From Clostridia bacterium (GTDB taxonomy: Bacteria > Bacillota > Clostridia > Oscillospirales > CAG-272), in contig JAFTNU010000074.1 of NCBI GenBank assembly GCA_017451735.1, positions 1 through 40,983 of the forward strand: DNA of 40,983 nucleotides. Direction: 5' to 3'. Made by a program: the position numbers and the translations under genes. Positions 10,138 to 32,422 of the stretch are shown piece after piece (position 1 is the first letter of the stretch; each line of letters opens with the position of its first letter). Below the pieces are notes generated by a model. The model was given only the letters and a program-made list of their open reading frames with translations. It was not told the origin of the DNA and did not search any database.

Positions 10138-10722
10138 TCAGCCGTAGGTTTTTAAAATGCTTTCGGCTATGGCGCGCTTTGAAACGCATTGATCCATCGC
10201 TGTCTTTTCGATATATTTGTGGGCATCCTCCTCGGTCATATTCATATGCTCGATCAATACCCATTTGGCGCGGTTCACGATGCGGATCTCGGCCATTTTT
10301 TCTTCTACCGATACTGTTTTTTGCTCCGAGCACCGCAAGCGCTCGCGGGCAATGACGAGCCAATCCAGTGCCTGTGTGAGGGTGGGCCTTGAGGTGGGCT
10401 TTGGGAGAATAAATACACCCCGTAAAGCTGCCTTTTCGTAAATTTCGTGATAGACCTCGTTGCGCACCAGCATCATGGCCACGGTACTTTTCTCGTTACA
10501 GACATCTATGGCAAAGCGGGTACCGATATCATCGGGCAGGGGCGCATTGATCAGCACAAGGTCAAAGGCATATTCCAGCATGGCCCGCTTGGCGGCGCTG
10601 ATGCTTGCCACGGTGGTGACGGGGAAATAGCGGGATTCGGGGAGCAATTCCCGCAAGGAATCATTGAGCTTTTCCGATGCTGATACCAGTAAAACACTGT
10701 ATATCCGTTCTGTCAGACTCAT
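10138..10722 (-). CDS. ANTAR-domain antitermination regulator with degenerate receiver
   Basis: The protein has 194 residues. Residues about 8-125 resemble a response-regulator receiver, but the position of the phosphorylated aspartate reads 'LVLINAPLP' (Asn59), so it is a pseudo-receiver. Residues about 140-194 are an ANTAR domain ('AKWVLIEHMNMTEEDAHKYIEKTAMDQCVSKRAIAESIL'), which binds paired hexaloop RNA hairpins and prevents transcription termination. It is the last gene of the glutamate synthase/glutamine synthetase operon, 41 bases after glnA. Hairpins with an A1/G4 hexaloop stand at the start of both divergent transcripts (15427-15444 and 15581-15598) and are the likely targets. Signal input is unknown because the phospho-site is missing. 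Confidence 0.88.
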   Translation of the reverse strand: MSLTERIYSVLLVSASEKLNDSLRELLPESRYFPVTTVASISAAKRAMLEYAFDLVLINAPLPDDIGTRFAIDVCNEKSTVAMMLVRNEVYHEIYEKAALRGVFILPKPTSRPTLTQALDWLVIARERLRCSEQKTVSVEEKMAEIRIVNRAKWVLIEHMNMTEEDAHKYIEKTAMDQCVSKRAIAESILKTYG

Positions 10723-10763: not shown

Positions 10764-11978
10764 TCATGCGTTGTGACAGTAAGCACCGATAACCGTGCCC
10801 GGCAGATGGCGGGCGATAAAGGCGCTGGCCCCGGCGGCCGCCACTGCCTCGTCACGGGATTGCGGTAGCTTTTTGAATTTGGCCAGAGTGACGGGATCGG
10901 CCGCAAACAGATTGATGTCGGTGGCGGGAGGCAGAGGTATTTTTTTCTCGATACCGTCCATTGCCGCACGGATGAGAAGCGCAAAGGCCAGATACGGGTT
11001 GGTGGCAGGATCGGGGGAACGAAGCTCGGCTCTGCGGTATTCGCCCGTGGCGGCGGGAACACGCACCAGCTGTGAACGGTTCTCGGCGGACCAGGAGATG
11101 TAACGGGGAGCCTTGTAATTTCCAAAACGCTCATAGGATTCGTGAATGGGGTTAAGGAACAGTGTCATATCCGATATGTGCGTCAGGATCCCCGCGATCA
11201 TGCAGGGGAGCAGGTCGGAGCCGTTTTTATTTTTGACCGACAGATTGATGTGGAAGCCGTTGCCGGGCTGACCGGGGACAGGCTTGGGTGAAAAATCGGC
11301 GCACAGACCGTTACGCCCCGCCACGGTTTTGACCACGGTTCGAAAGGTCATGGCATTATCGGCACTGGTCAGGGCATCGGCATAGCGGAAGTCGATCTCG
11401 TTTTGCCCGGGGCCCTCCTCGTGGTGAGAGCTTTCGGGGAAGATATCCATTTTTTCCAGGGTCAGACAAATCTCGCGGCGCACATTCTCGCCTCTGTCCT
11501 CGGGGGCGATGTCCATGTAACCCGCGGTGTCAAAGGGTGCGGTGGTGGGGTTACCGCTCTCATCCAGCTTGAACAGATAGAATTCCATTTCCGCACCAAA
11601 GGCAAAGGAGATGCCTTGCTTTTCGGCATCGGCAACAGCCTTTTTCAGAATGCTTCTGGTGTCTCCCTCGAAAAGAGAGCCGTCGGGGAGGTGGATCGAG
11701 CAGAACATCCGCACCACACGGCCGTGCTCGGGGCGCCAGGGAAGCACCGTCAGCGTGCCGGGGTCGGGGCGCAGGAAAAGATCGGAGTGGGTCTCGTCTC
11801 CAAAGCCGTCGATGGCAGAGGCGTCGATGGCGATACCGCAATCAAAGGCCCGGGGCAGCTCCCCCGGCATGATCGAAATATTTTTTTGCTTGCCGTAGAT
11901 GTCGCAAAAGGCAAGACGGATGAATTTCACATCCTCCTCCATGACATATTGCATGACTTCTTGTGCCGAATACTTCAT
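10764..11978 (-). CDS. glnA: Glutamine synthetase, short type I form
   Basis: It makes glutamine from glutamate, ammonia and ATP. The protein has 404 residues, shorter than the usual ~440-470. The N-terminal beta-grasp (about 1-90) has 'FIRLAFCDIYGKQKNISI'. The catalytic domain shows metal-site and substrate motifs 'GAEMEFYLF', 'EEGPGQNEIDFRYADAL', 'GNGFHINLS', 'NPIHESYERFG', 'RSQLVRVPA' and 'RRAELRSPDPATNPYLAFA'. The C-terminal segment with the adenylylation tyrosine of long GSI types is not evident. ATG 11978 follows AAAGGAG. It sits between the glutamate synthase GXGXG subunit gene and the ANTAR gene, making a compact GS-GOGAT operon. A second, type III enzyme is encoded divergently at 15657. 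Confidence 0.9.
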   Translation of the reverse strand: MKYSAQEVMQYVMEEDVKFIRLAFCDIYGKQKNISIMPGELPRAFDCGIAIDASAIDGFGDETHSDLFLRPDPGTLTVLPWRPEHGRVVRMFCSIHLPDGSLFEGDTRSILKKAVADAEKQGISFAFGAEMEFYLFKLDESGNPTTAPFDTAGYMDIAPEDRGENVRREICLTLEKMDIFPESSHHEEGPGQNEIDFRYADALTSADNAMTFRTVVKTVAGRNGLCADFSPKPVPGQPGNGFHINLSVKNKNGSDLLPCMIAGILTHISDMTLFLNPIHESYERFGNYKAPRYISWSAENRSQLVRVPAATGEYRRAELRSPDPATNPYLAFALLIRAAMDGIEKKIPLPPATDINLFAADPVTLAKFKKLPQSRDEAVAAAGASAFIARHLPGTVIGAYCHNA

Positions 11979-12000: not shown

Positions 12001-12714
12001 TTAATTTGAGACATACATCTGATGATAGGGGTTATTGCTGTCGGGGGTCACCACGGTGAAGGGTCCCCGCATGATCTGCTCGGTCTCATATCCGAAAAGT
12101 GCGCAAAATTCGGATACGTACGGCAAAATTTCGGCAAGATCCGCATCGTCTGCGGTTTTTGCGCTCACTTGCGCGGGAAAGGAGATATTGGTGCAATCCG
12201 ACCGTAGGAGCACTTTTCCGCCGTGCATGCCCGTGCAGGGAAAATCCCCCACGATGGGGCCGCCGTCAAGTCCCAGAACGATGATCTTTCCGCCCGCCTG
12301 ATATTCCCCGAGAAAGCTGCCCGCACGGCCACCAATGACGATGACCGGCACCTTCTCCCGATATTCCTTCATATGGATGCCGGCTCGGTAGCCGGCATTC
12401 CCCTTAACAAGGATCCTGCCGCCGCGCATAGCATATCCCGCGGCATCGCCAATACTCCCGTGTACAACGATCTCACCGTCGTTCATGGTGTCGCCCACGG
12501 CATCCTGGGCGTTGCCGTTTACGGTGACGGTGGCACCGTTGAGATAAGCCCCAAGGGCGTTCCCCGGTATCCCGTCAATACCGATCTTTTTCTCTCCCAT
12601 GCCGGCGGCGATAAAGCGTTGCCCCCGGCAATGGGTGATCTGACAAGGCTCCTCTGCCTCGCGGATTCTGTCATTTAAGGCACGGTGATCCAGTGCTTCT
12701 GCGTTTATCAACAT
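12001..12714 (-). CDS. Glutamate synthase, GXGXG (beta-helix) subunit
   Basis: The protein has 237 residues and corresponds to the C-terminal domain of large-subunit glutamate synthase, encoded separately as in archaeal-type enzymes. It shows a repeating right-handed beta-helix with GxGxG-like turns: 'GATVTVNGNAQDAVGDTMNDGEIVVHGSIGDAAGYAMRGGRILVKGNAGYRAGIHM'. This domain is structural and packs against the FMN synthase domain. The gene follows the FMN subunit by about 50 bases and precedes glnA by 22. Confidence 0.88.
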   Translation of the reverse strand: MLINAEALDHRALNDRIREAEEPCQITHCRGQRFIAAGMGEKKIGIDGIPGNALGAYLNGATVTVNGNAQDAVGDTMNDGEIVVHGSIGDAAGYAMRGGRILVKGNAGYRAGIHMKEYREKVPVIVIGGRAGSFLGEYQAGGKIIVLGLDGGPIVGDFPCTGMHGGKVLLRSDCTNISFPAQVSAKTADDADLAEILPYVSEFCALFGYETEQIMRGPFTVVTPDSNNPYHQMYVSN

Positions 12715-12762: not shown

Positions 12763-14268
12763 TTATTCGCCTGCGTGGGCGATCCCCAGGATCGACAGCT
12801 CCTTTTCCGAAAGTCCGATCCCACGGAGCATGAGACGGTTGCCTCTGAGTGCTTCGATGGCGTTGATGCCCATGCCGCCCATCATCTCCTTGATTTCGTG
12901 ATTCCATGCGGTCATCAGATTGCACAGACGGCGAGCACCTTCCTCGGGGTCAAGGCGTTTGACCAGCTCGGCCCGCTGGGTGGCGATACCCCAGTTGCAT
13001 TTACCGCTCTGACAGTTGCGGCAGAGATGGCAGCCCAGGGCGATCAGGGCGGCTGTGCCGATGTAGCAGGCATCGGCCCCCAGGGCCACTGCCTTGACCA
13101 CATCGGCGGCGGAGCGGATGCTTCCGCTGGCGATCAGCGATACACGGTTGCGGATTCCCTCGTCCCGCAGGCGTTGATCCACGGCGGCCAGTGCCAGCTC
13201 GATGGGAATGCCCACATTGTCCCGGATGCGGGTGGGAGCGGCCCCCGTGCCTCCGCGAAATCCGTCGATGGCGATGATATCGGCGCCGCTGCGGGCAATA
13301 CCGCTGGCAATGGCGGCAATATTGTGTACGGCCGCTACCTTCACAATGATCGGCTTTTTGTATTCGGTGGCTTCCTTGAGAGAAAAGACCAATTGACGCA
13401 GATCCTCAATGGAATAAATATCATGGTGCGGGGCAGGGGAGATGGCGTCGGACCCTTCCGGGATCATGCGGGTGCGGGAAACGTCCCCCACGATCTTGGC
13501 CCCCGGAAGATGGCCGCCGATACCGGGCTTGGCGCCCTGACCCATCTTGATCTCGATGGCGGCACCCGCCTCGAGGAAATCCTTGTAAACACCGAAGCGG
13601 CCCGATGCCACCTGTACCACGGTATGCTCACCGTAGCAGTAGAAATCCTCGTGCAGACCACCTTCGCCCGTGTTGTAATAGATGCCAAGCTCTGCGGCGG
13701 CTTTGGCCAGTGCGGCATGGGCATTATAGCTGATCGAGCCGTAGCTCATGGCTGAGAACATGACCGGCATGGTCAGATGGAGCCGGGGGGTAGCCTCACA
13801 TTTGATCCGCCCTTCCTTGTCCCTCTCGATCCGCGCGGGGCTTTTTCCCAGAAATACATCGGTTTCCATAGGCTCACGCAAGGGATCGATGGGGGGATTG
13901 GTGACCTGGGATGCATTGATCAGGATCCTGTCCCAATAGACGGGCAACGGATTGGGATTGCCCATGGAGGAAAGGAGCACACCGCCGCTCTCGGCTTGCT
14001 TGTAGATCTCGTTGACGGTGGAAGCCGACCAGTTGGCATTTTCCCGCAGAGTGCAGTTACTTTTCACGATTTTTAATGCACGTGTGGGACAAATTGCGAC
14101 ACAACGCTGGCAATTAACGCATTTGCTTTCATCTGCCAGCATCAGCTTGTGCTCGGCATCAAAGCGGTGCACCTCGTTGGCACATTGCTTTTCACAAAGG
14201 CGGCATTTGACACAGCGGCTGTCGTTACGTACCACCTCGAACGCAGGATAGATCAGATTCATCTTCAT
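12763..14268 (-). CDS. Glutamate synthase, FMN/ferredoxin-domain subunit
   Basis: The protein has 501 residues. An N-terminal pair of 4Fe-4S clusters (about 18-65: 'CVKCRLCEKQC', 'CVNCQRCVAICP') precedes the FMN-binding synthase barrel. The barrel has 'MSYGSISYNAHAALAKAAAELGIYYNTGEGG', 'MGQGAKPGIGGHLPG', 'RGGTGAAPTRI' and a cluster-binding 'CHLCRNCQSGKCNWGIATQ'. It converts 2-oxoglutarate and ammonia (from the amidotransferase subunit) to glutamate. The built-in ferredoxin domain and absence of a gltD gene in this operon suggest electrons come from ferredoxin rather than a GltD reductase. Its ATG overlaps the stop of the amidotransferase gene, behind AGGAGG. Confidence 0.9.
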   Translation of the reverse strand: MKMNLIYPAFEVVRNDSRCVKCRLCEKQCANEVHRFDAEHKLMLADESKCVNCQRCVAICPTRALKIVKSNCTLRENANWSASTVNEIYKQAESGGVLLSSMGNPNPLPVYWDRILINASQVTNPPIDPLREPMETDVFLGKSPARIERDKEGRIKCEATPRLHLTMPVMFSAMSYGSISYNAHAALAKAAAELGIYYNTGEGGLHEDFYCYGEHTVVQVASGRFGVYKDFLEAGAAIEIKMGQGAKPGIGGHLPGAKIVGDVSRTRMIPEGSDAISPAPHHDIYSIEDLRQLVFSLKEATEYKKPIIVKVAAVHNIAAIASGIARSGADIIAIDGFRGGTGAAPTRIRDNVGIPIELALAAVDQRLRDEGIRNRVSLIASGSIRSAADVVKAVALGADACYIGTAALIALGCHLCRNCQSGKCNWGIATQRAELVKRLDPEEGARRLCNLMTAWNHEIKEMMGGMGINAIEALRGNRLMLRGIGLSEKELSILGIAHAGE

Positions 14269-15362
14269 CAGAATCGCCCCTCCTTTACTTTGATGATGAC
14301 AGGCTCACCGCCTGCGGGCGCATAGATTTTTGTCACATTCGGCTCCATGACACGAATGGCGGCCTCCTCGCTGGCGATGTAGACCTTGTCGTCTTTCTCG
14401 CCCACCACCATGGAACGCAGCTTCAGGCGGTCGTTGAGAGCCATCAGGCCACCCTCAAAGCCCACAACGATCGAGAAGGGACCTGTGACCAGCAGACCTG
14501 AAAAAACGGTGCGCAGATAGGTGAGCCGCTCGCGTTCGTCGGCGGGGCGCTTTTCAATGGTGCTCCAGAAGGGGGCGGCGATCACATGGGCCGCTTCTTC
14601 CGGGGTAAGCCCTTGGATGCGGAGCAGATAATCCATAATGTAGGTGATCACCTCAGTGTCGGTCTGCAGATTGCACTGATAGCCGAACATCTCGATAAAG
14701 CGGCGGTTGGCATCGTAAGAGGAGATCTCGCCGTTATGCACCACCGACAGATCAAGCAGTGTGAAGGGGTGAGCGCCCCCCCACCAGCCGGGGGTATTGG
14801 TGGGATAGCGACCGTGTGCGGTCCAGGCATAGCCTGCGTATTCCTCCAATTTATAAAAAGCACCTACATCCTCGGGGAAGCCCACTGCCTTGAAGGCTCC
14901 CATATTCTTGCCGCAGGAAAAGACGAAGGCTCCTTCCATTTCGGTGTTGATCTTGATGACTGTCCTTGCCACAAACTCTTTTTCATCCAATTGCAGCGAG
15001 GCCAACACCGAGCGTAAGGGGGAAACAAAATAACGCCAGATGATGGGCTCGTCGGTAATGGCCGGGATCTTGCGGGTGGGCATGATCTCGGATTTTACGA
15101 TCTCAAACCGCTCTTTGAGAAATTGCTCGCAGCTTTTGCGCGTGGCACGCTCGTTAAAAAAGAAATGAAGGGCATAAAAGTCCTTGTATTCGGGGTAGAT
15201 GCCGTAAGCGGCAAAGCCGCCGCCAAGACCGTTGGAGCGGTCATGCATGGGGCGCATGGCGTCCATAATGGGCCGGCCAGACATCCGTTCTCCTTCTTTG
15301 GAGATGACGGCGGCAATGGCACAGCCCGAAGGGATGCGAATCTGACCTTCTTTTTTCATCAT
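14268..15362 (-). CDS. Glutamate synthase, class II glutamine amidotransferase subunit
   Basis: The protein has 364 residues and is the separate glutaminase part of the split glutamate synthase. It has 'PSGCAIAAV' with the presumed nucleophile Cys14, then '[29 protein letters not shown]'. It also has the substrate-binding '[22 protein letters not shown]' and '[16 protein letters not shown]'. The cysteine is not at position 2, so an N-terminal propeptide would have to be removed, as in other members of this type. The start is ATG 15362 (or 15359), behind AGAGGGA; an upstream in-frame ATG at 15377 and a start at 15404 lack a ribosome binding site. First gene of the minus-strand operon, behind a consensus promoter and leader hairpins. 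Confidence 0.87.
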
Positions 15363-15400
15363 AAAAATCCCTCTCATGTTCAAAAAAGAGAAAAGCGCAC

Positions 15401-15428
15401 ACAAAAAACAGCATATACTGTTTCTTGT
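15401..15428 (-). promoter_or_regulatory. Second leader hairpin, glutamate synthase transcript
   Basis: On the minus strand, ACAAGAAACAG pairs with CTGTTTTTTGT (one G-T pair) around the hexaloop TATATG. The right arm contains a run of six T, so a short version of the stem could serve as terminator. It directly follows the AAAGGC hairpin, as expected for the second element of an ANTAR-type attenuator, though its loop lacks the A1/G4 pattern. Confidence 0.5.
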
Positions 15429-15444
15429 GAACGCCTTTGCTCAC
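15427..15444 (-). promoter_or_regulatory. ANTAR-type hexaloop hairpin, glutamate synthase leader
   Basis: On the minus strand, GTGAGC pairs with GTTCAC (one G-T pair) around the six-base loop AAAGGC. The loop has A at position 1 and G at position 4, the pattern known for ANTAR targets. It starts about 9 bases after the -10 box, so it is at the very 5' end of the transcript. Confidence 0.6.
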
Positions 15445-15452
15445 TTGCAAGC

Positions 15453-15481
15453 ATTATAGCATCAAACCTTCAATTTGTCAA
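15453..15481 (-). promoter_or_regulatory. Sigma-A promoter of the minus-strand nitrogen operon
   Basis: TTGACA (15476-15481) and TATAAT (15453-15458), read on the minus strand, are both perfect consensus hexamers with a 17-base spacer. With a promoter this strong, control probably comes after initiation, in the leader. Confidence 0.9.
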
Positions 15482-15504
15482 CGGAAAAACGAGAAAAATT
15501 CAAT

Positions 15505-15538
15505 TTTTTGCAAGAACGCGTTTAAAAAATTGCAAAAA
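15505..15538. promoter_or_regulatory. Inverted repeat between the two divergent promoters
   Basis: A perfect 9-base inverted repeat (TTTTTGCAA ... TTGCAAAAA) with a 16-base gap sits between the two -35 boxes of the divergent nitrogen promoters. It could be an operator for a shared regulator; no binding protein is known from the sequence. The 294-base interval 15363-15656 holds only regulatory elements. Confidence 0.4.
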
Positions 15539-15542
15539 CCCC

Positions 15543-15571
15543 TTGACAAGCGAGAAGAATGGGTGTATAAT
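15543..15571 (+). promoter_or_regulatory. Sigma-A promoter of the type III glutamine synthetase gene
   Basis: TTGACA (15543-15548) and TATAAT (15566-15571), both perfect consensus, are separated by 17 bases. Strength again suggests regulation by the attenuator that follows. Confidence 0.9.
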
Positions 15572-15580
15572 GAGCGCATC

Positions 15581-15598
15581 AAAGGCAAAGGCGTCTTT
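15581..15598 (+). promoter_or_regulatory. ANTAR-type hexaloop hairpin, glutamine synthetase III leader
   Basis: AAAGGC pairs with GTCTTT (one G-T pair) around the loop AAAGGC, the same hexaloop as in the divergent leader. It begins 10 bases after the -10 box and overlaps the left arm of the terminator at 15584, so the two structures exclude each other, as expected for antitermination. Confidence 0.6.
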
Positions 15599-15635
15599 TG
15601 GGTTCTGTACCCGAAGGCGCCTTTGTCTATTTTAT
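15584..15635 (+). terminator. Leader terminator (attenuator) before glutamine synthetase III
   Basis: A long hairpin (15584-15603 with 15609-15627, 19 pairs with one bulged T, loop TCTGT) is followed by TATTTTATT. It lies between promoter and ribosome binding site, so it must be read through for expression. Confidence 0.8.
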
Positions 15636-15656
15636 TCCCGAAAGGAGATCTTTGCT

Positions 15657-17753
15657 ATGGGAAGCATACCGGAAGAGTTTGGGAGTCTTGTATTTGACGA
15701 CAGAGTGATGCGTGCGAAGCTTTCTGCCAAGGTTTACGCCTCGCTCAAGAAGACGATCGACGAAGGAAAGGAACTGGATCTGAATGTGGCCAACGCAGTG
15801 GCGGGGGCCATGAAGGATTGGGCCATTGCAAACGGTGCCACACACTACACCCACTGGTTTCAGCCCTTGACCGGCGTGACTGCCGAAAAGCATGACAGCT
15901 TTATTTCTCCCGCTCCCGACGGGGGCGTGATCCTGGAGTTTTCGGGGAAGGAGCTGATCAAAGGGGAGCCCGACGCCTCGTCCTTCCCCTCGGGCGGGCT
16001 TCGTGCCACCTTTGAGGCAAGAGGCTATACTGCTTGGGATCCCACATCTTATGCATTTATTAAAGGTAAGACACTTTGCATTCCCACTGCGTTCTGCTCC
16101 TACGGCGGGGAAGCATTGGATAAGAAGACCCCCCTGCTTCGTTCCATGGAGGCCTTGAATGTGCAGGCGCTCCGTATTCTGCGGCTCTTTGGTAACGATG
16201 CCGTCAAGTGCGTACGTACCTCGGTGGGCCCCGAGCAGGAATACTTCCTTGTAGATAAGGAAATGTACAATAAGCGCCCCGATCTGGTCTATACCGGCCG
16301 CACGCTTTTCGGTGCAAAGCCCCCCAAGGGGCAGGAGATGGATGACCACTACTTCGGCGTGATCAAGCCCCGCGTTGCCGCCTACATGGAGGAGCTGAAC
16401 GAGGAGCTCTGGAAGCTGGGTATTCTGGCGAAGACCGAGCACAACGAGGTCGCACCTGCTCAGCATGAGCTGGCACCTATTTACTCCACCACCAATATTG
16501 CCACCGACCATAATCAGCTGACCATGGAGATCATGCAGAAGGTGGCGGCACGGCACGGTCTTGTGTGTCTGCTGCATGAAAAGCCCTTTGCCGGCGTCAA
16601 CGGTAGCGGTAAGCACAACAACTGGTCCATCGCCACCGACGGGGGCGTCAACCTTCTGTCTCCCGGCGAGACACCCCACGAGAATGCGCAGTTCCTGCTG
16701 TTCCTGTGTGCCGTGATCAAGGCAGTGGATGAATACCAGGATCTGCTTCGTATCTCGGTGGCAACGGCAGGGAACGATCACCGTCTGGGTGCAAACGAGG
16801 CACCGCCTGCCGTGGTATCGGTGTTCCTGGGGGATGAGCTGAATGCGATTCTGGAGGCCATCGAGCGGGATGTGTCTTACGGCGGTACCGCCAAGACGAC
16901 CATGAAGCTGGGGGTGGATGTTCTGCCCAAGTTCCCCAGAGACACCACCGACCGTAACCGCACCTCTCCCTTTGCCTTCACAGGCAATAAGTTTGAGTTC
17001 CGCATGCTCGGCTCCTCCAACAGCATTGCCTGTGCCAATATCATGCTGAACGCCGCCGTGGCCGAATCTCTCAAGCAGTTTGCCGACACCCTGGAGGCGG
17101 CTCCCGATTTTTCAAGCGTTTTGCATGCCACCATCCGTAAGACCATTAAGGATCACAAGCGGATCATCTTCAACGGCAACGGCTATGATGACGCCTGGAT
17201 CAAGGAGGCAACAGAGCAGCGGGGGCTTTGCAACTACCGCACCACACCCGATTGCGTACCGCATTTGTTGGATGAGAAGAATGTCAGGATGCTGACCTCC
17301 CACAAGGTCTTCTCCGAGGCGGAGCTGAAGTCTCGCTATGAGATCACGCTGGAGAATTATTGCAAGACTGTGACCATCGAGGCAAATACTATGGTGGATA
17401 TGGTCAAGAAGCAGATTCTGCCCGCCATCGGAAGCTATGTCAAGGAGCTTTCCGCCACCGCCACCGCCAAGCTGGCATTGGATAGCGATATGCCCTGCGG
17501 TTTTGAGCGGAATACGGTGAAGCGCCTGTCTGCGCTGGCAGACGGGATCGCCGTTCATACCGCGGAGCTGGAGAACGTATTGCTGAAATTGCGTTCGGCG
17601 GACGAGATCGGTGAGGAGGCGAACGGTATTCGGGATGAGCTGTTGCCCGCTATGGGCCGTCTGCGCCTTTCCTGCGACGAGGCAGAGAGCCTGACCGCCG
17701 CAAAATATTGGCCTTTCCCCACTTACGGAGAGCTGTTATTTGGTGTAAGATAA
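15657..17753 (+). CDS. glnN: Glutamine synthetase type III
   Basis: It makes glutamine from glutamate and ammonia. The protein has 698 residues, the usual size for GSIII. It opens '[33 protein letters not shown]', then '[23 protein letters not shown]' (about 60-82), '[27 protein letters not shown]', '[14 protein letters not shown]' (metal-binding glutamate), '[20 protein letters not shown]', '[11 protein letters not shown]' and '[15 protein letters not shown]'. The frame is open further upstream, but the promoter and leader define ATG 15657 behind AAAGGAG. The Amt-PII fusion gene follows by 31 bases. The symbol glnN is used for GSIII in other genera; the type assignment is firm, the symbol less so. 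Confidence 0.93.
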
Positions 17754-17784: not shown

Positions 17785-19515
17785 ATGAACCTGACAATGT
17801 TAGTTGATACCCTATGGGTGTTCCTTGCAGCCATATTGGTATTCTTTATGAATCTCGGCTTTGCCTCCCTTGAGGCGGGCATGGCAAGGTCGAAAAATAC
17901 CGTTAATATCCTTTCAAAGAACTTTATTGTGTTTGCGGTCTCGTCCCTTGGCTTTATGCTTTTGGGGTGGGGATTGATGTTCGGCGGTGACAATCCGTTT
18001 ATCGGTACACAGAACCTGTTCATTTTAGGTAATGCGGATCTTTCGTTCTACAATGACACATTGACATCGAATGTACCCTTTTGGGGCAAGTTCTTCTTCC
18101 AGCTTGTCTTTTGCGGTACTGCCGCAACCATCGTTTCCGGTGCGGTTGCCGAACGGATCAAATATGTTTCGTTTATCGTCTTCTCGTTTGTGCTCACATT
18201 GGTGATCTATCCCATCGTTGGTCACTGGGTATGGGGCGGCGGGTGGCTGGCAGATCTTGGCTTTAAGGATTTTGCCGGTGATACCGTTGTGCACTCTTTA
18301 GGCGGCTGGGCCGCTTTGGCGGGGGCGATCATCCTCGGTCCCCGCATCGGTAAATACGGAAAGGATGGCAAGCCCCGCGCCATTCCCGGGCACAATATGT
18401 CTCTTGCGGTCATCGGCTTGTTTGTGCTCTGGCTCGGGTGGTTTGGCTTTAACCCCGGTTCTACCATGAGCTTTCAGAATCCGGATGATGTGATGCATAT
18501 CCTCATGACCACCAACACCTCTGCCATTGCCGCAGTATTGACCTCCACCGTTGCTTCGTGGATATTCGTCGGCAAGCCCGATCTCGGTATGACGATCAAC
18601 GGCTGTCTTGCAGGCCTTGTGGCCATTACCGGCGGTTGCGCCTATTTTTCCATCCGTGATTCGCTGATCATTGGTGCCATTGCAGGCGTTATCGTAGTAT
18701 TTGCGGTCGTATTCTTTGATCGCATCAAGGTCGACGATCCTGTAGGCGCTACCTCCGTTCATCTTTGCTGCGGCGTATTCGGCACCATCTGCATCGGCCT
18801 GTTCGCAAAGGAAGGTGTGACAACCCTTTCGACAGAGAACGGTCTCTTTTACGGCGGCGGACTGAAATTGCTCGGCACTCAGCTGTTGGGCGTTGTAGCG
18901 GTGGGGGCATTCGTCTTCGTCACAACGGCTCTCCTTTGGTTGCTCTTAAAGAAGACGATGGGGATTCGTGTCACCGCGGAGGAAGAAATTGCCGGTCTTG
19001 ATATCGGTGAACACGGTAACCGTGCATATCCCGACTTTGCACCGACGGTTGAAAGCATCGATTATGCCCGGGAGGGCGAAGAGGCAGAGCCCACGGGCCG
19101 GGTTTCCGTTGCAGAGGCGGTACCTGTCAGACAGGTGCCCGCACCTGTAGAGGGCGCACCCAAGTTTACCAAGGTGGAGATCATCTGTAAGGAAGCCCGC
19201 TTTGAGACCTTGAAGAAGGCCATGGCCGAGCTGGGCATCACCGGCATGACCGTTTCCCATGTGCTGGGATGCGGTCAGCAGAAGGGTAGCCCCGAGTTCT
19301 ATCGTGGCGTCCCGGTGGAGGTATCCCTCCTGCCCAAGGTCCAAGTGGATATTGTGGTCAGCAAGATTCCGGTACGTAGTGTGATCGAGGCGGCCAAGAA
19401 GGCCCTTTACACGGGCCACATCGGCGACGGTAAGATCTTTGTTTACGATGTAGAAAACGTGATCAAGGTCCGTACCGGCGAGGAAGGGTATGACGCCCTT
19501 CAGGATGTAGAATAA
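17785..19515 (+). CDS. amt: Ammonium transporter fused to a PII (GlnK) domain
   Basis: The protein has 576 residues. Residues about 1-405 are an Amt/Rh channel with eleven hydrophobic helices: 'MVDTLWVFLAAILVFFMNLGFASLEAGMARSKN', the pore region 'GGWAALAGAIILGPRIGKYG' and 'GWFGFNPGS'. A linker (about 410-459) leads to a complete PII domain (460-576) with T-loop 'GCGQQKGSPEFYRGVPVEVSLLPK' and B-loop 'TGHIGDGKIFVYDV'. PII normally plugs Amt when nitrogen is plentiful; here it is attached. The T-loop keeps Gln39 and the Tyr-Arg-Gly equivalent, but the uridylylated Tyr51 is Val (residue 511), so regulation must be by ligands (ATP/ADP, 2-oxoglutarate). Ammonium taken up feeds the upstream glutamine synthetase. 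Confidence 0.92.
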   Translation: MNLTMLVDTLWVFLAAILVFFMNLGFASLEAGMARSKNTVNILSKNFIVFAVSSLGFMLLGWGLMFGGDNPFIGTQNLFILGNADLSFYNDTLTSNVPFWGKFFFQLVFCGTAATIVSGAVAERIKYVSFIVFSFVLTLVIYPIVGHWVWGGGWLADLGFKDFAGDTVVHSLGGWAALAGAIILGPRIGKYGKDGKPRAIPGHNMSLAVIGLFVLWLGWFGFNPGSTMSFQNPDDVMHILMTTNTSAIAAVLTSTVASWIFVGKPDLGMTINGCLAGLVAITGGCAYFSIRDSLIIGAIAGVIVVFAVVFFDRIKVDDPVGATSVHLCCGVFGTICIGLFAKEGVTTLSTENGLFYGGGLKLLGTQLLGVVAVGAFVFVTTALLWLLLKKTMGIRVTAEEEIAGLDIGEHGNRAYPDFAPTVESIDYAREGEEAEPTGRVSVAEAVPVRQVPAPVEGAPKFTKVEIICKEARFETLKKAMAELGITGMTVSHVLGCGQQKGSPEFYRGVPVEVSLLPKVQVDIVVSKIPVRSVIEAAKKALYTGHIGDGKIFVYDVENVIKVRTGEEGYDALQDVE

Positions 19516-19536: not shown

Positions 19537-19562
19537 GGTGGCACCGCATTTGCGGTGCCACC
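19537..19562 (+). terminator. Strong palindromic hairpin between amt and gatC
   Basis: A perfect 12-bp stem (GGTGGCACCGCA with TGCGGTGCCACC) with a TT loop lies 21 bases after the amt stop. No T-run follows (TTAAGGCG), so it is probably a partial terminator, processing or mRNA-stability element rather than a full stop. Confidence 0.45.
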
Positions 19563-19594
19563 TTAAGGCGTATTATAAGAAGGGAAAAGCTTTT

Positions 19595-19882
19595 ATGAAA
19601 ATCGACAAAGAACAGGTCAGACATGTGGCGGCGCTTGCCAAGCTCCGATTTGAAGAAAGCGAATTGGAGGCCTTTGGTGACAGCCTGGGCGCCATTATCG
19701 CTTTTGCCGATCAGCTGAACGAGCTGGATGTGGGCACGGTGGGTGCCACGGCACAGAGCTCGGATCTTTACAATGTATTCCGTGAGGATGAGCAGAAGGC
19801 CTCTTATCCCCGTGAGGTGATCCTTGCAAACGCGCCTGAGCAGTGCGAAGGATGCTACGCGGTCCCCAAAATCGTAGAGTAA
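19595..19882 (+). CDS. gatC: Asp/Glu-tRNA amidotransferase subunit C
   Basis: The protein has 95 residues. It opens 'KIDKEQVRHVAALAKLRFEESELEAFGDSLGAIIAFADQLNELDV', the typical GatC helical belt that wraps GatA and links it to GatB; the C-terminal part has 'VFREDEQKASYPREVILANAPE'. It stabilises the GatCAB complex, which converts mischarged Glu-tRNA(Gln) or Asp-tRNA(Asn) to the correct amide form. ATG 19595 follows AAGGGAAAAG. gatA starts 12 bases downstream. Confidence 0.93.
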   Translation: MKIDKEQVRHVAALAKLRFEESELEAFGDSLGAIIAFADQLNELDVGTVGATAQSSDLYNVFREDEQKASYPREVILANAPEQCEGCYAVPKIVE

Positions 19883-19894
19883 GGAGAGCGTCGG

Positions 19895-21358
19895 ATGGGT
19901 ATGATGACAGTAAAGAAACTGAGCAGAATGCTGCGGGAGAGGGAGGTTTCCTCGGTGGAGGTGACCAAAAGCTATCTCGCCCGCATTGAACAAAGGGACG
20001 GTGTGATCGGCAGCTTTATCACGGTTTGTGCCGATGAGGCCTTAAAGGCCGCCACCGCTGCCGATACGCTCCTTGCCAAAGGAGAGGGCGGGGCGCTGAC
20101 GGGGATTCCCGTCGGTATTAAGGATAATATCTGTACCGCGGGCGTACGGACCACCTGCGCTTCCCGTATGCTTGAGCGTTTTCTGCCGCCTTACGATGCC
20201 ACCGTGGTGAAAAGACTGAAGGATGCAGGGGCAGTGATCCTGGGCAAGCTTAATATGGATGAGTTCGCCATGGGCTCCTCTACCGAGAGCTCTTATTTCA
20301 AGAAAACGAAAAACCCGTATGACCTCTCTTGCGTGCCCGGCGGCTCCTCGGGCGGCTCTGCCGCTTGTGTGACGGCGGAGCTGGCTCCTTTTGCTTTGGG
20401 CTCGGACACGGGCGGCTCGATCCGTCAGCCTGCTGCATTTTGCGGCAATGTGGGGCTCAAGCCCACCTATGGGTTGGTGTCCCGCTTCGGCCTTGTAGCC
20501 TTTGCCTCCTCTCTTGATCAGATCGGATCCTTTACCCACACCGTGGAGGATTGCGCTCTGGTGTTGAACCATATTGCGGGGCATGACCCCATGGATTCCA
20601 CCTCTGCCGCTCTTGATCTTCCCGATTATACCGGGGCGTTGACGGGAGAGGTCAAGGGGATGCGAATCGGCGTGCCCCGCGAATACTTGGGTGAAGGGAT
20701 CCAGCCCGAGATCCGTGCGGCGGTGGAGGATGCCATGAAGGTATTGGAGCGTTTGGGTGCCCATTGCGAGTACTGCTCCTTGCCTCTGACGCAGTATGCA
20801 CTGCCGGCCTATTACCTCATTTCCTCGGCCGAGGCAAGCTCCAATCTTGCGCGGTATGACGGCGTGAAATATGGCTATCGGGTATCGGAATTCAAGGGCT
20901 TGAATGACCTTTACGAAAAGACCCGCAGTGAAGGCTTTGGGGCCGAGGTCAAGCGTCGGATCATGCTTGGCACCTATGCACTCAGCTCGGGCTACTATGA
21001 TGCTTACTATAAAAAAGCACAGCAGGTGCGCACCTTGATTGGTCAGGATTTTGGCAAACGGTTTGCAGAATTTGATGTTTTGCTGACCCCCACCACGCCT
21101 ACAACGGCCTATCGATTCGGTGAAAAGTCCGATCCGCTTGCCATGTATATGGGGGATATCTGCACCGTGGCCGTAAATATTGCAGGGCTCCCGGCCATCA
21201 GTATTCCCGCGGGGCTCGACCGTGCGGGCAAGCCCATTGGCATTCAATTGATCGGCGACCGCTTTGCGGAATCCGAGATCCTGCGTGTTGCCCATGCTTA
21301 TGAGAAAGAGACGGGACATGATGCCATCAGCCCCGTATGGAGGGAGGAAAGCGTATGA
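19895..21358 (+). CDS. gatA: Asp/Glu-tRNA amidotransferase subunit A (amidase)
   Basis: This 487-residue glutaminase subunit of GatCAB releases ammonia from glutamine (or asparagine) and passes it to GatB. The amidase-signature Ser-cisSer-Lys triad is visible in '[10 protein letters not shown]' (Lys), '[11 protein letters not shown]' (Ser) and '[11 protein letters not shown]' (Ser). The protein ends '...[11 protein letters not shown]', slightly longer than many homologues. It starts at ATG 19895, 7-8 bases after AAGGAGAG. Its stop overlaps the gatB ATG, so the two subunits are coupled. Confidence 0.95.
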
Positions 21359-22782
21359 GTGCTTTTGAAACGGTGATCGGCCTTGAGATCCACGCAGAGC
21401 TGGCGACACGCTCCAAGATCTATTGCTCCTGCTCCACCGCCTTCGGTGCCGAGGTGAACACCCACACCTGCCCCATTTGCACGGGAATGCCCGGTGTGCT
21501 GCCCGTGCTCAACAAAAAAGTGGTGGAATATGCCGTTATGGCGGGGCTCGCCATGAACTGCGAGATCACCGAGTACGGCAAGCAGGATCGGAAAAACTAC
21601 TTCTATCCCGACCTGCCCAAGGCCTATCAGACCTCCCAGTACGATCTGCCCATCTGCAAAAACGGTTATCTGGAAATCGAGGCCGACGGGAAAGTGAAAA
21701 GGATCGGCATTACCCGTATCCACATTGAGGAGGACGCAGGTAAGCTGATTCACGATCCCTACCGCGGGCAATCCCTGATCGATTATAACCGATGCGGTGT
21801 ACCCCTTATCGAGATCGTGACCGAGCCCGATATGCGATCCCCGGCCGAGGCCAAGGCTTTCCTTGAAAAGGTCAAGTCCATTCTGGAATACACCGGTGTT
21901 TCGGACTGTAAGATGCAGGAGGGATCATTGCGGTGTGATGTGAACCTGTCGGTCCGCCCCATGGGTCAAAAGGAATTCGGTACCCGTACCGAGATGAAGA
22001 ACATCAACTCCTTCAGTGCGGCGGTCCGTGCCATGGAGAATGAGCGGGAGCGGCAGATCGATCTGATCGAATCGGGCGGTGAGGTGGTGCAGGCCACCCG
22101 TAAGTGGGATGACGTGAAGGGGGAGAGCAGTCAGATGCGCTCCAAGGAGGAGGCCCACGATTACCGTTATTTCCCCGAGCCCGATTTGGTGCCTATCGTA
22201 GTGGACAAGGAATGGGTGGAGCGCATCCGCAGGGCCTTGCCCGAGCTGCCCGATGCCCGCAAGGCTCGCTATATGTCGGTATTCGGTCTTTCTGCGTATG
22301 ATGCCGGCATTCTGACAGCCTCCCGCAAAACGGCGGACTATTTTGAGCAGGCCGTGCAAGAAGGTGCTTCACCCAAGGCGGCGGCCAACCGCATCATGGT
22401 GGATATCTCGGCGCTTCTGACCGAAAAGGGCTTGGAGGAGATCCCCTTCGCCCCCGTGTATCTTGCCAAAACGCTGGCCCTGGTCGAGGCGGGAACGGTA
22501 AGCAGTACGGCGGCGAAAAAGATCATAGAGGCTTTGTTTGAGGAAGTGAAGGAGCCTGCCGAGATCGCCAAAGAGAAGGGGCTTTTGCAGGTCAGCGATG
22601 AGTCGGCGCTGGTGCCCATCATCCAACGGATCATCGACGAGAACCCGAAGGCGGTGGCCGAGCTGCAAGCGGGCAAGGAGAAGGCCATGGGCTTTTTTGT
22701 GGGGCAGGCCATGCGCGCCTCCAAGGGCAGTGCCAACCCCGCTGTCATTCACAAGCTGGTCAGAGAAATGCTGAAAAAATAA
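21355..22782 (+). CDS. gatB: Asp/Glu-tRNA amidotransferase subunit B (kinase/amidotransferase)
   Basis: The protein has 475 residues. It opens '[22 protein letters not shown]', with the zinc-binding cysteines (CSC...CPIC) at about 22-44. The kinase core follows: '[16 protein letters not shown]', '[14 protein letters not shown]', '[18 protein letters not shown]' and '[13 protein letters not shown]'. The C-terminal YqeY-like tail binds tRNA. It phosphorylates the mischarged tRNA and adds the ammonia supplied by GatA. ATG 21355 overlaps the gatA stop; a start at 21337 would lie before the ribosome binding site. Confidence 0.95.
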
Positions 22783-22799
22783 AGGACGAGGTGCTTGAT

Positions 22800-23513
22800 A
22801 TGTTGAAAGGTGAACAACTCTACGAAGGAAAAGCAAAGAAGGTATTCAAAACTGACGATCCCGAGCTGCTGATCGTCTCCTACAAAGACGATGCCACGGC
22901 CTTTAACGGGCTCAAAAAGGGAACCATTGCAGGTAAGGGCGTCATCAATAACCGTATGAGCAATCTGCTGATGCAGATGCTGGAAAAGAAAGGGGTGCCC
23001 ACCCATTTTGTACAGGAGCTGGACGATCGGGACACGGTGGTCAAGCGGGTAACGATAGTCCCCCTGGAGGTGATCGTGCGTAATATTGCCGCAGGTTCCT
23101 TCTCCAAGCGCTATGGCGTGGAGGAGGGTGTAGTGTTCGATACCCCCACCATTGAATTTTCCTATAAGAACGACGCACTGGGAGATCCGTTGCTCAATAC
23201 CTACCACGCACTTGCGTTGAAATTGGCAACACCTGCCGAAATCGATACCATTAAGGCACTTTCCTTTAAGATCAATGAGGCCCTGAAGGCCTTTTGGGCC
23301 GAGTGCGGTGTCACCTTGGTGGACTTCAAGCTGGAGTTTGGCAGACTTTTTGACGGAACTGTCGTTCTGGCTGATGAGATCAGTCCCGATACCTGCCGCT
23401 TGTGGGACAGTGCGACCGGTGAAAAGCTGGATAAAGATCGCTTTCGCCGTGACCTCGGTGGCGTGGAGGATGCCTATGAGCAAGTTATGAGCCGTTTGCT
23501 CAGCCATATTTGA
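22800..23513 (+). CDS. purC: Phosphoribosylaminoimidazole-succinocarboxamide synthase
   Basis: The protein has 237 residues and makes SAICAR from CAIR and aspartate with ATP (purine biosynthesis). Motifs: '[12 protein letters not shown]' at the start, '[10 protein letters not shown]', '[12 protein letters not shown]', '[22 protein letters not shown]' and '[15 protein letters not shown]'-like near the end. ATG 22800 follows GAGGTG at a good distance; a GTG nine bases upstream overlaps that ribosome binding site. Only 17 bases separate it from gatB and 10 from guaA. It is the one enzyme in this stretch that does not use glutamine. Confidence 0.94.
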
Positions 23514-23523
23514 GAGGTGCTCC

Positions 23524-28134
<4,611 letters not shown>

Positions 28135-28142
28135 GGTCTCAT

Positions 28143-29240
28143 ATGGCAAAACAATTTGACAGAAAGATCATTTTTGAGGATGGGGAGGTGTATTACGGCT
28201 ACGGTTTCGGCGCCGATGGCGATCGGGTCCTGGAGATCGTGTTCAATACCTCCATGGTGGGGTATCAGGAGATCCTGTCCGATCCCTCCTATACCGATCA
28301 GGCCGTGGTCATGACCTATCCTCTGATCGGCAACTACGGTATGTGTGACGATGATTACGAACGGGGCGTGTCTACCATCGGCGCCTTGATCGTAAGAGAA
28401 TATAACGGCATCCCCTCTAACTTCAGAAGTACGCAGGCGTTGGGGGATGAGATGAAAAAATACGGTATCGCAGGTATTTATGGGGTGGATACCCGCAAGC
28501 TGACCCGCTCCATACGCGATAAGGGCTCTCGCCGTGTGCTGATCACCGGGGCGGATGTGCCTGCGGAGCAGGGGGTTACCGTATTACGTGCCGCTATGGT
28601 TCCGGCTGACGCCGTTGCACGCGTCAGTGTCAAATCGGTACGACGGGCGGAGGCGGACCATGAGCGATTTCACGTGGTGGCCATCGATTGCGGCATGAAG
28701 GAGAACATCGTGCGTTCGTTGAATCGGCGTGGCTGTACAGTGACTGTGGTTCCGTTTGATACGCCCGCCGCCGCAATCGAGGCATATGCCCCTGACGGTC
28801 TCTTTCTTTCCAACGGCCCGGGTGACCCCACCGATGCAGAGCCTGTCATTGAGACGGTCAGGGCATTGCGGGGAAAATATCCCATCTTCGGTATTTGTCT
28901 GGGGCATCAGATCCTTTCACTTGCCTATGGGGCGACCACCTATAAGCTGAAATTCGGCCATCGGGGCGGCAATCATCCCGTGCGGGATCTGGAAACGGGG
29001 AAAATCGAGATCACCTCGCAGAATCATTCCTTTGCGGTGGATGAAAAAAGTCTTGCCGCAACACCCCTGACCGTGACACATATAAATTTGTTGGATGGCA
29101 CAGTGGAGGGGGTCGAATGTAAGAAGGATAGGGCGTTCAGCGTGCAATATCATCCCGAAAGCGCTCCCGGGCCGCAGGACAGCGCGTATCTTTTTGACCG
29201 ATTTATCCGACTGATGGAGGAGGAAAAGCATCATGCCTAA
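28143..29240 (+). CDS. carA: Carbamoyl-phosphate synthase small (glutaminase) subunit
   Basis: The protein has 365 residues. N-terminal domain: '[34 protein letters not shown]' and '[18 protein letters not shown]'. Class I glutaminase domain: '[13 protein letters not shown]', '[13 protein letters not shown]', '[17 protein letters not shown]' (Cys) and '[15 protein letters not shown]'. It supplies ammonia from glutamine to CarB for carbamoyl phosphate (pyrimidines and arginine). The start is ATG 28143 behind GTGAGG; a GTG 12 bases upstream overlaps that ribosome binding site. It overlaps carB by 8 bases. Confidence 0.95.
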
Positions 29241-31395
29241 GAGAACCGATATCAAAAAAGTTCTTGTCATTGGCTCCGGCCCCATTGTGATCGGCCAGGC
29301 GGCGGAGTTTGACTATGCGGGAACGCAAGCCTGCCTTTCGCTCAAGGAGGAGGGGTACGAGGTGGTGCTTTGTAACTCCAACCCCGCCACCATCATGACC
29401 GACACCGGCATTGCCGACAAGGTCTATATGGAGCCGCTGACTCTGGAGTATGTTGCCAAGATCATTCGCTATGAGCGACCCGATGCCATTCTGCCGGGTA
29501 TCGGCGGGCAGACCGGCCTGAACCTTGCCATGCAGCTGGAGAAAAAGGGGGTTCTGCGGGAATGTCGTGTGGAGCTGCTCGGCACAAGCAGCGAGTCCAT
29601 CGAGCGTGCCGAGGACAGAGAACAGTTCAAGGAGCTGTGCCAGAGCCTCGGTGAGCCCGTGCTTCCCTCTGACATTGCAAATTCCATGGAGGAGGGGCTT
29701 GCGGTGGCGGAACGGATCGGCTATCCCGTGGTGCTTCGTCCCGCCTTTACTCTGGGCGGAACGGGTGGCGGTTTTGCCGACAATGAGACGGAATTCCGTG
29801 CGCTGATGAAAAATGCGCTCACGCTCTCTCCCGTGCATCAGGTGCTCATCGAGAAGAGCATCAAAGGGTTCAAGGAGATCGAATACGAGGTCATGCGGGA
29901 TCGGAACGATACCGCCATCACCATCTGTAACATGGAGAATATCGACCCCGTGGGCATTCATACGGGCGACTCCATCGTGGTCTGTCCCTCCCAGACTCTG
30001 ACCAACAAGGAGTATCATATGCTCAGGGATAGCGCGTTGAAGATCATCCGTGCCCTGAGGATCGAGGGGGGCTGCAATGTGCAGTTCGCGTTGGATCCCC
30101 GCTCCTTTCAATATTATCTCATCGAGGTCAATCCTCGTGTTTCCCGCTCCTCTGCGCTGGCCTCCAAGGCATCGGGGTATCCCATTGCCCGTGTGTCGGC
30201 CAAGATCGGCGTCGGTATGACGCTGGACGAGATCCGCATTGCCAACACTCCCGCCTCCTTTGAGCCGACGCTGGACTACGTGGTTACCAAAATGCCCCGT
30301 TTCCCCTTTGACAAATTCGCCGATGCCAACAATAGCCTTTCCACGCAAATGAAGGCCACGGGTGAGGTCATGAGCGTGGGACGTACCATTGAGGAAAGCC
30401 TGCTCAAGGCCATTCGCTCGCTGGAAATCGGTCTTTGCCATTTGCATCACCGCAAATTCGACAATATGGACCGGGGAGAGCTACTGCATTATATCGGCAT
30501 CGGAACCGATGATCGCATCTACGCTATGGCCGAGCTTCTGCGCCGCGGATGCGCCGTAGAGACGATTGCGGATGCCTCCGCGATTGACTTGTTCTTTATC
30601 CGTAAGATGAAAAACATTGTGGAGGAAGAAAGGGAGCTTGCCGCCAACAAAGGGGACCTTTCCGTGTTGCGCGAGGCGAAAAAAATGGGTTTTTCGGATC
30701 AAGAGATCGCCTGCCTTTGGCAAATGAGCGAGATCGAGGTCTTTGAGCTGCGCAAGCAGAAGGGCATTTTACCTGTATATAAGATGATCGATACCTGCGC
30801 CTCGGAGTTTGACAGCTACATTCCTTATTTCTACTCCACCTATGAGGAGGAAAACGAGTCGGTGGTCTCCGATAGGCAAAAGGTCATCGTGCTGGGCTCA
30901 GGGCCCATTCGCATCGGGCAGGGCGTGGAATTTGATTACTCCACGGTTCATGCCGTGGGGACGATCAAGGCGGCCGGCTACGAGGCCATCATCATCAATA
31001 ACAATCCCGAGACGGTTTCTACCGATTATACCTGCTCCGACAAGCTCTATTTTGAACCCCTTTGCGTGGAGGATGTGATGCACGTTATCGAGCTGGAAAA
31101 GCCCATGGGCGTGATCGCTACTTTGGGCGGCCAGACCGCCATCAATCTGGCACAGCCCTTGCGGGAGCGCGGGGTAAGGATCATCGGCACCGACTGTGAC
31201 GCCATCGAGAGGGCCGAGAATCGGGATGCCTTTGAAAAGCTCCTGTCCCAATTGCATATTCCCCGGCCCAAGGGGCAGGCAGTGACAAGCATCGAGGCGG
31301 GCGTCAGAGCCGCCGCCGAGATCGGCTATCCCGTGCTGGTTCGTCCCAGCTTTGTTTTGGGTGGACGCGCCATGCAAATTGTGGCCAAGGAGTAG
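29233..31395 (+). CDS. carB: Carbamoyl-phosphate synthase large subunit, N-terminal part (interrupted by TAG)
   Basis: This part has 720 residues up to an in-frame TAG at 31393-31395. It contains the carboxyphosphate ATP-grasp half ('[25 protein letters not shown]', '[13 protein letters not shown]', 'EIEYEVMRD', '[23 protein letters not shown]'), the oligomerisation region and the start of the second half ('[24 protein letters not shown]', '[19 protein letters not shown]'). The same frame continues after the stop and, with one codon read through, gives about 1060 residues, the normal CarB length. The stop falls in the second ATP-grasp, so this part alone could not complete the reaction. It is a nonsense mutation, sequencing error or a split enzyme; see the next entries. 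Confidence 0.85.
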
Positions 31396-31401
31396 GCCTT
31401 G
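31387..31401 (+). promoter_or_regulatory. Possible stop-restart site inside carB
   Basis: AAGGAG (31387-31392), a perfect ribosome binding site, abuts the TAG (31393-31395) and lies 6 bases before an in-frame TTG (31399). That would allow reinitiation of the second part. AAG-GAG also simply encodes Lys-Glu, so the match may be chance. Confidence 0.35.
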
Positions 31402-32415: not shown

Positions 32416-32422
32416 GGGAAGA

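Follow-up and report, generated by a model that had tools for sequence, protein, structure and literature searches.

ANTAR proteins regulate transcription through RNA, and their dissected targets carry two hexaloop hairpins separated by a linker of 5-12 nt (PMC3369931; PMC3369936). The same dual architecture has been described for actinobacterial ANTAR RNAs (PMC8164766). Targets have been reported before glutamate and glutamine synthase genes (PMC3369931), and NitR of Clostridium saccharobutylicum is described as an ANTAR protein that induces the glutamine synthetase/glutamate synthase (GS/GOGAT) genes by antitermination on nitrogen limitation (PMC6316151). Work on the EutV-RNA complex has led to the proposal that one hexaloop is the smallest unit to which ANTAR binds (Walshe et al. 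2022, PMC8934654). We analysed contig JAFTNU010000074.1 of a Clostridia bacterium (assembly GCA_017451735.1), hereafter the window, a stretch of 40,983 nt in which a glutamate synthase operon and a gene for type III glutamine synthetase (GSIII) diverge, each behind a leader with one hexaloop hairpin of ANTAR type. Our favoured explanation, which we consider likely, is ANTAR antitermination through one hexaloop at the 5' end of the RNA, with no recruitment hairpin.

The two leaders share a simple anatomy (Table 1). An earlier note on this DNA, made from the sequence alone, had claimed for both a hexaloop AAAGGC with A at position 1 and G at position 4 (A1/G4), on a 6-bp stem closed by C-G about 10 nt after a consensus -10. 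The claim holds: both promoters match the consensus at 12 of 12 positions, and 9 nt (GSIII) or 8 nt (glutamate synthase) separate the -10 from the first paired base. Given an ordinary start, so short a distance makes the hairpin the 5' end of the RNA. In the GSIII leader the arms AAAGGC (15581-15586) and GTCTTT (15593-15598) enclose the loop, and the C-G closing pair is followed by G.U; the glutamate synthase hairpin, on the minus strand, reads GTGAGC-AAAGGC-GTTCAC. Alone, the hairpins have RNAfold energies of -3.5 (GSIII) and -5.9 kcal/mol (glutamate synthase), and their loops and 3' arms are absorbed by the longer structures. The GSIII terminator stem (15583-15628) overlaps the hairpin and is followed by one A and then TTTTATTC, while that of the glutamate synthase leader (15442-15388) overlaps likewise and is followed by T and then TTTTTGAA. 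Both leaders are hairpin/terminator switches, and each is a single hairpin-terminator unit. A second hexaloop hairpin with a U-rich arm, which the earlier note had drawn in the glutamate synthase leader, is actually the upper part of the terminator. In the window's own genome, a covariance model of promoter plus hairpin finds only the two window sites up to E = 0.1 (1.4e-5 and 1.8e-5).

The element is not peculiar to the window. Type III synthetase and ANTAR were searched for in 59 genomes, the window's own included, and regions were fetched from the 23 that carried ANTAR; further loci were the best 80 named loci among the ANTAR matches listed for 84,980 species genomes. The hairpin survey covered 121 loci (1.68 Mb, window included) and took stems of at least 5 bp with C-G closing behind promoters scoring at least 10/12. 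Conservation of the loop in relatives, which the earlier note had offered as a check, is plain: the class AANGNN accounts for 122 promoter-proximal hairpins, and the 15 other letter classes for 8 between them. When no requirement at all was placed on the loop, 282 promoters scoring at least 11/12 gave 158 hairpins at the 5' end, of which 108 had hexaloops; 95 of these were of the form A..G and 98 were closed by C-G, AAAGGC being the commonest loop (47). Removal of duplicates left 120 hairpins, 51 before glutamate synthase, 47 before GSIII, five before type I synthetase, one before an ammonium transporter-PII fusion (amt-PII) and 16 before other genes. In 117 of the 120 distinct cases, the -10 is separated from the first paired base by 6-11 nt. 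Judged from sequence, the promoter-hairpin elements form a family in ANTAR-carrying Clostridia.

Its common form is RGC-AANGRN-GYY. An alignment (A2) was made of 72 promoter-proximal hairpins from a list of 106, and another (A3) of 60 from 116 promoter-hairpin sequences. In 65 of the 72 hairpins G.U forms the second pair (G-C in 4, A-U in 3), a strong preference that keeps the antiterminator weak. Covariation in the same 72 is well above expectation, with 121 cells changed on both sides against 53.0 in shuffles, and a score of 0.587 against 0.263 for shuffled and at most 0.187 for slid pairs. One member of the list of 106, at window positions 15206-15225, lies inside coding sequence and is a chance hairpin.

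Overlap with a terminator is as general as the hairpin itself. For this test and those of adjacency, two of the 120 promoter-proximal hairpins were left out (spacing above 10 nt), leaving 118. A strict terminator test was passed by 115 of them, but by only 14 of 118 when the downstream part was shuffled; among promoter-less hairpins elsewhere, 28 of 113 passed. The earlier suggestion that the GSIII hairpin excludes an overlapping terminator is thus borne out, both in the window, where the stem takes up loop and 3' arm, and across the family.

Its further suggestion, of a single-hairpin variant, also fits the wider set, where adjacent second A1/G4 hexaloops are no commoner than expected by chance. 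With stems of at least 4 bp, such a neighbour was found downstream in 9 of 118 cases, within the 5-15 of other letter classes, and upstream in one. Stems of 3 bp were then allowed because the second stem of a dual motif before eutA (see below) is only 3 bp and was missed at 4 bp. At this length, with C-G or G-C closing and a linker of 2-14 nt, there were 2/118 downstream (other classes 0-7) and 0/118 upstream (0-3); with any closing pair the figures were 8/118 (4-24) and 5/118 (1-15). In a scan of the 121 loci for complete dual motifs, A1/G4 candidates with terminator numbered 12, inside the range of nine other classes (1-32) and so at background. Six of these had been taken for tRNA genes, yet ARAGORN found no tRNA in those loci; all six map antisense to a single stretch of the glutamate synthase FMN gene and arise by chance. 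The positive control produced no A1/G4 dual motif with terminator worth keeping at 4 bp. At 3 bp, with C-G or G-C closing, it produced one in 12 other ANTAR loci (other classes 0-3), situated in another genome between ANTAR and kinase genes and eutA-eutB-eutC; since other classes give 0-3, we count it as real by its place.

These results bear directly on whether the leaders might be canonical dual-hexaloop targets whose recruitment hairpin was missed, either because transcription starts further upstream or because the first hairpin is degenerate. Dissected ANTAR antiterminators do have both P1 and P2, and degenerate stems could evade a pattern scan. Moreover, the sole upstream A1/G4 match at 4 bp is a weak hexaloop just before the window's own glutamate synthase hairpin; it lies in the spacer between -35 and -10, in promoter DNA, and so outside the RNA if the predicted promoter is right. 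Adjacent A1/G4 hexaloops do not exceed other letter classes on either side at either stem length, the dual scan stayed at background though the dual motif before eutA was detected, and the -10 box leaves no room in the RNA for an upstream hairpin. We therefore regard a missed first hairpin as improbable.

A different route to two hairpins would be for one ANTAR dimer to use separate ones, in tandem units of one leader or on two nascent RNAs. Of 45 promoter-proximal GSIII leaders, 29 do have a further hairpin 62-138 nt downstream, and a terminator of its own accompanies 39 of the 43 promoter-less hairpins that lie upstream of GSIII. Among glutamate synthase leaders only 7 of 51 have a further hairpin (77-164 nt downstream), and in the other 44, as in both window leaders, none of this kind was found; the spacing is far above the 5-12 nt linker, and Walshe et al. 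argue against binding in trans (PMC8934654). This arrangement seems to us about as unlikely as a missed recruitment hairpin. Tandem hairpin-terminator units can be seen, for example, in the GSIII leaders of loci L003, L004, L005, L008, L010, L011, L012 and L018.

The link to ANTAR itself was assessed with a covariance model of -10 plus hairpin (R1). In the 59 genomes, R1 matched at E<=0.01 in 17 of 23 with ANTAR and in none of 36 without (Fisher 3.6e-10), a cut picked after viewing a list run to E = 0.1, at which the counts are 19/23 and 5/36. R1 was built partly from genomes of this first set, so detection there is favoured. In a class-wide sample of 147 genomes, which overlaps the first set in a few genomes, 33 had matches at E<=0.01: 31 of 81 with ANTAR and two of 66 without (Fisher 7.7e-8). 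At least two of the 31, G136 and G151, appear to owe their matches to chance similarity within genes. By eye, the R1 matches L239, L242, L246, L251 and L268 were judged chance or coding, and L264 (G121) doubtful. A simple pattern, TATAAT-N-GCAANGNNGNY, matched 57 of the 59 genomes, mostly by chance beside the real leaders, and R1 was used in its place.

In the window's genus (G000-G020), ANTAR was found in two of 21 genomes, several of them incomplete: the window's own and G010, which are also the only two to match at E<=0.01. This distribution suggests that the whole cluster was either acquired by transfer or lost repeatedly. In a genome where no ANTAR was found (G024, locus L013), the GSIII leader keeps the promoter and a decayed hairpin (AATGCAGTGGCGTCTTT), which suggests that the switch was lost after loss of ANTAR.

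The co-occurrence also speaks to the idea that the hairpin works without ANTAR, for instance as a stabiliser of mRNA 5' ends or as an unregulated attenuator. Stems at the 5' end do stabilise mRNAs, and that this ANTAR protein binds the hexaloop, like the start sites and the direction of regulation, is something we infer. Stabilisation needs neither particular loop letters nor a C-G closing pair, both of which are strongly selected here, and the element keeps company with ANTAR genes; of the alternatives weighed, this one appears the most remote.

A number of points weigh against antitermination by a single hexaloop or the evidence for it. In the one closely dissected ANTAR system, deleting P1 or lengthening the linker abolishes antitermination (PMC3369931, PMC8934654), so that one hairpin ought not to suffice. 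In the window, a scan of 15300-15700 for terminators with uninterrupted stems reported none, probably because both stems have interruptions; the U-tract of the GSIII terminator is itself interrupted, and Rfam gave no family at gathering score anywhere in the window. The 13 permissive Rfam matches in 15300-15700 belong to unrelated families and score far under the gathering cut-offs. All survey loci come from ANTAR-carrying genomes, 80 of them picked by nearness to ANTAR, and they are related to one another. The search imposed A1, A2, G4 and C-G closing on alignment A2, and it is the letter-class counts and the letter-free survey that test these. The 60 sequences of the covariance model include both window leaders; independent support comes from conservation and the control counts. 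Pairs with a double change number 5 of 7, no higher than in shuffles (mean 4.6; 311/500), and there are few independent covariation events, since the sequences are related and a large share of the changes distinguishes the GSIII from the glutamate synthase versions. Promoters and start sites are predicted throughout. ANTAR genomes without an R1 match at E<=0.01 are not rare (6/23, and 50/81 in the class sample), and two ANTAR-less genomes have matches, one doubtful (G121) and one strong (G094). In the latter, which shows 6% contamination, there are three good leader matches (locus L247), the best before a gatD-like gene; its lack of a detectable ANTAR is possibly due to incomplete assembly or contamination.

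The genes behind the leaders concern the glutamine economy. The assembly to which the window belongs as a contig measures 2.37 Mb and is 90.7% complete; named relatives are Clostridia. To the left of the intergenic region, glutamate synthase is split into genes for its amidotransferase, FMN and GXGXG parts, after which come a gene resembling type I glutamine synthetase and then the ANTAR regulator, the sole ANTAR found in the genome; to the right, GSIII is followed by the ammonium transporter-PII fusion. Behind the GSIII leader follow 19.5 kb of close-packed genes, in which glutamine synthesis and ammonium uptake are combined with many glutamine-using enzymes.

Table 1. Features of the window: predicted leader elements and the genes around them
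Feature	Position	Strand	Remarks
GSIII promoter, TTGACA-17-TATAAT	15543..15571 (TTGACA 15543-15548, TATAAT 15566-15571)	+	12/12 consensus
ANTAR-type hairpin, 6 bp, proposed antiterminator, GSIII leader	15581..15598	+	hexaloop AAAGGC 15587-15592
Competing terminator, GSIII leader: stem 15583-15628 and U-rich tail	15583..15637	+	RNAfold -31.6 kcal/mol
Glutamate synthase promoter, TTGACA-17-TATAAT	15453..15481 (TTGACA 15481-15476, TATAAT 15458-15453)	-	12/12 consensus
ANTAR-type hairpin, 6 bp, proposed antiterminator, glutamate synthase leader	15427..15444	-	hexaloop AAAGGC 15438-15433
Competing terminator, glutamate synthase leader: stem 15442-15388 and U tract	15379..15442	-	RNAfold -31.0 kcal/mol
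ANTAR regulator, degenerate receiver, 194 aa, proposed RNA-binding antiterminator	10138..10722	-	Pfam ANTAR 1.4e-15
Glutamine synthetase I-like protein, 404 aa, catalytic flap Glu->Lys, proposed glutamine sensor partner	10764..11978	-	
Glutamate synthase GXGXG domain protein	12001..12714	-	Pfam
Glutamate synthase FMN-binding domain with ferredoxin domain	12763..14268	-	Pfam
Glutamate synthase amidotransferase domain, first gene of operon; start inferred, ATG 15362 or 15359	14268..15362	-	Pfam GATase_2, ORF
Glutamine synthetase type III (glnN), first gene behind plus-strand leader	15657..17753	+	Pfam GSIII_N
Ammonium transporter fused to PII domain	17785..19515	+	Pfam, NCBIfam
Close-packed train: gatC, gatA, gatB, purC, guaA, pyrG, purF-like GATase, carA, carB (two ORFs), dapF, aminotransferase, nadE	19538..35144	+	purF name inferred; co-transcription inferred from packing

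Within this train the carbamoyl-phosphate synthetase large subunit is represented by two successive open reading frames, 29233-31395 and 31399-32415 (+), of 720 and 338 aa, either a real split or an assembly error.

Elsewhere the element precedes asnB, pyrG, guaA, gdhA, purC, glmS and purA, all identified above curated cut-offs. It also precedes amt-PII in G042, with a weaker model match (E = 0.03). Less sure targets are gatA (partial, just under cut-off) and gatD (well under). The earlier note had proposed that the ANTAR gene, at the end of the glutamate synthase operon, controls itself, and other loci agree with this: 45 of the 80 named loci have a hairpin leader on the same strand no more than 9 kb upstream of ANTAR, while 23 are too short to tell and 12 have none, so self-control is apparently common but not universal. 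The 14 second GSIII copies scanned in ANTAR genomes (L110-L123) show no such hairpin in the upstream stretch covered; besides these, the window's own genome has a second copy (G000:C74). Sequence and gene context together support an element that serves a glutamine-economy regulon, the ANTAR gene included.

The window's ANTAR protein has a clear C-terminal ANTAR domain (PF03861, 57.2 bits, cut-off 27.3). Its Response_reg match of 28.7 bits falls under the cut-off of 30.2, unlike what a phosphorylatable receiver of EutV type would give. Where the phosphorylated Asp would be, the window protein has Asn, as do 18 of 22 aligned ANTAR proteins (Asp in 2, other residues in 2), and the receiver probably cannot be phosphorylated. 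PADLOC returned no match for the protein. The signal would then most likely come from the adjacent synthetase-derived protein, the PII domain of the transporter being an alternative input.

The nature of this neighbour was unexpected. ANTAR was matched in 102 of 103 loci, and a type I synthetase homologue lies directly upstream in 94 of them, the other 8 ending too close to the ANTAR gene to show what precedes it. A homologue of at least 46% identity is present in all 23 ANTAR genomes, and of the 36 without ANTAR only G037 reaches 45%, with a protein that retains the flap Glu. The flap Glu (motif GYEAP), which we take to be E327 in the numbering of S. typhimurium, is Lys in the window and in 87 of the 94 proteins (two same-contig pairs included, 92 distinct), Glu in 4, and another residue or a gap in 3. 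The remaining catalytic residues that were checked are conserved in 92-94 of the 94 proteins, except for one Asn position, conserved in 83. The window protein scores 327.7 bits with TIGR00653, under the curated GlnA cut-off of 429.15. In B. subtilis, Arg62 of the D50 loop contacts the flap Glu304 (PMC9249791); at the corresponding position, mapped by alignment, 75 of 88 Lys-type proteins have Asp, and four of five Glu-type proteins Arg or Lys. Most Lys-type proteins are about 403 aa long, and those inspected lack the C-terminal tail of the 436-447-aa Glu-type. A quick tree, with a root of our choosing, puts no Glu-type protein within the Lys-type clade (support 0.75). One Lys-type second copy (L243), in an ANTAR genome, does not adjoin ANTAR.

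The flap substitution predicts a loss of catalysis; set against this, the rest of the active-site residues are retained, and the protein may yet have enzyme activity. By analogy with GlnR/TnrA control, we lean slightly towards the synthetase-derived protein being the glutamine sensor for the ANTAR protein.

Altogether, the computation supports the anatomy of the leaders, their conservation and covariation, the lack of a second adjacent hexaloop, the overlap with terminators, the co-occurrence with ANTAR, the regulon, and the altered synthetase and receiver. On the mechanism we propose, both transcripts would start at strong promoters and their first nucleotides would fold into one small A1/G4 hexaloop hairpin. 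By default the longer terminator would take over its loop and 3' arm, and transcription would stop in the leader. Under shortage of nitrogen or glutamine, the ANTAR protein would bind the hexaloop and hold the hairpin, letting RNA polymerase pass; no separate recruitment hairpin would lie upstream, the single antiterminator hairpin being the 5' end of the RNA. At other times the glutamine-sensing, synthetase-derived protein would hold the ANTAR protein back. The complete picture, a clostridial glutamine regulon of gut and rumen in which single 5'-terminal hexaloop antitermination is gated by a catalytically retired synthetase (flap Glu->Lys, mostly with D50-loop Arg->Asp) serving as a dedicated glutamine sensor while GSIII does the chemistry, is put forward as slightly less likely than not.

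Compared with known systems, the leaders share with the dual-hexaloop ANTAR RNAs of eut, nasF and amiE (Ramesh et al. 2012, PMC3369931) an A1/G4 hexaloop, conserved closing pairs, overlap with a terminator, nitrogen genes and an ANTAR protein in the genome. They differ in having one hairpin, at the predicted 5' end of the RNA, with a narrow promoter distance and a strongly conserved G.U second pair. As in the NitR system, an ANTAR regulator is tied to GS/GOGAT genes and its gene adjoins one for a type I synthetase (here in 94 of 102 loci), the neighbourhood in C. saccharobutylicum being, as we assume, glnA-nitR. Unlike what is described for NitR, the adjacent synthetase here is without the flap Glu, and the regulated synthetase is of type III.

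A receiver that is not phosphorylated is a known type among ANTAR regulators, as in the pseudo-receiver of AmiR (PMC3369936). For a synthetase as sensor there is the precedent of GlnR/TnrA, where a feedback-inhibited glutamine synthetase signals glutamine to a nitrogen regulator and the flap takes part (PMC9249791). In contrast to that system as described, the target here would be an RNA-binding antiterminator and not a MerR-like DNA-binding protein, the interaction being one we infer, and the synthetase has the flap Glu->Lys and mostly Asp for the D50-loop Arg. AmiC and NasS are partners of another protein type than glutamine synthetase, and, unlike them, the candidate partner here derives from a pathway enzyme. 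Control of an ANTAR protein by a partner that senses a small molecule is, on the other hand, common to AmiC-AmiR, NasS-NasT and the present proposal (PMC3369936, PMC3795266).

ANTAR control of GS/GOGAT genes is known; what is new is single hexaloops in antitermination leaders. Titles and abstract openings in the literature searched, most subscription journals lying outside it, mention neither a single-hexaloop antitermination leader nor a synthetase-derived ANTAR sensor. The leaders would also sketch a regulon for nitrogen control in bacteria of gut and rumen, and they direct attention to an enzyme that may have become a sensor, which is open to biochemical test. Walshe et al. (2022, PMC8934654) ask why there are two hexaloops if a dimer binds one, and note that single-hexaloop function needs work. 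The present leaders resemble their proposal in taking the single hexaloop as the unit, with the difference that here single hexaloops occupy antitermination leaders: they look like natural single-hexaloop antiterminators acting on transcribing polymerase in many Clostridia, and their narrow promoter-hairpin distance makes the question of two hexaloops directly testable.
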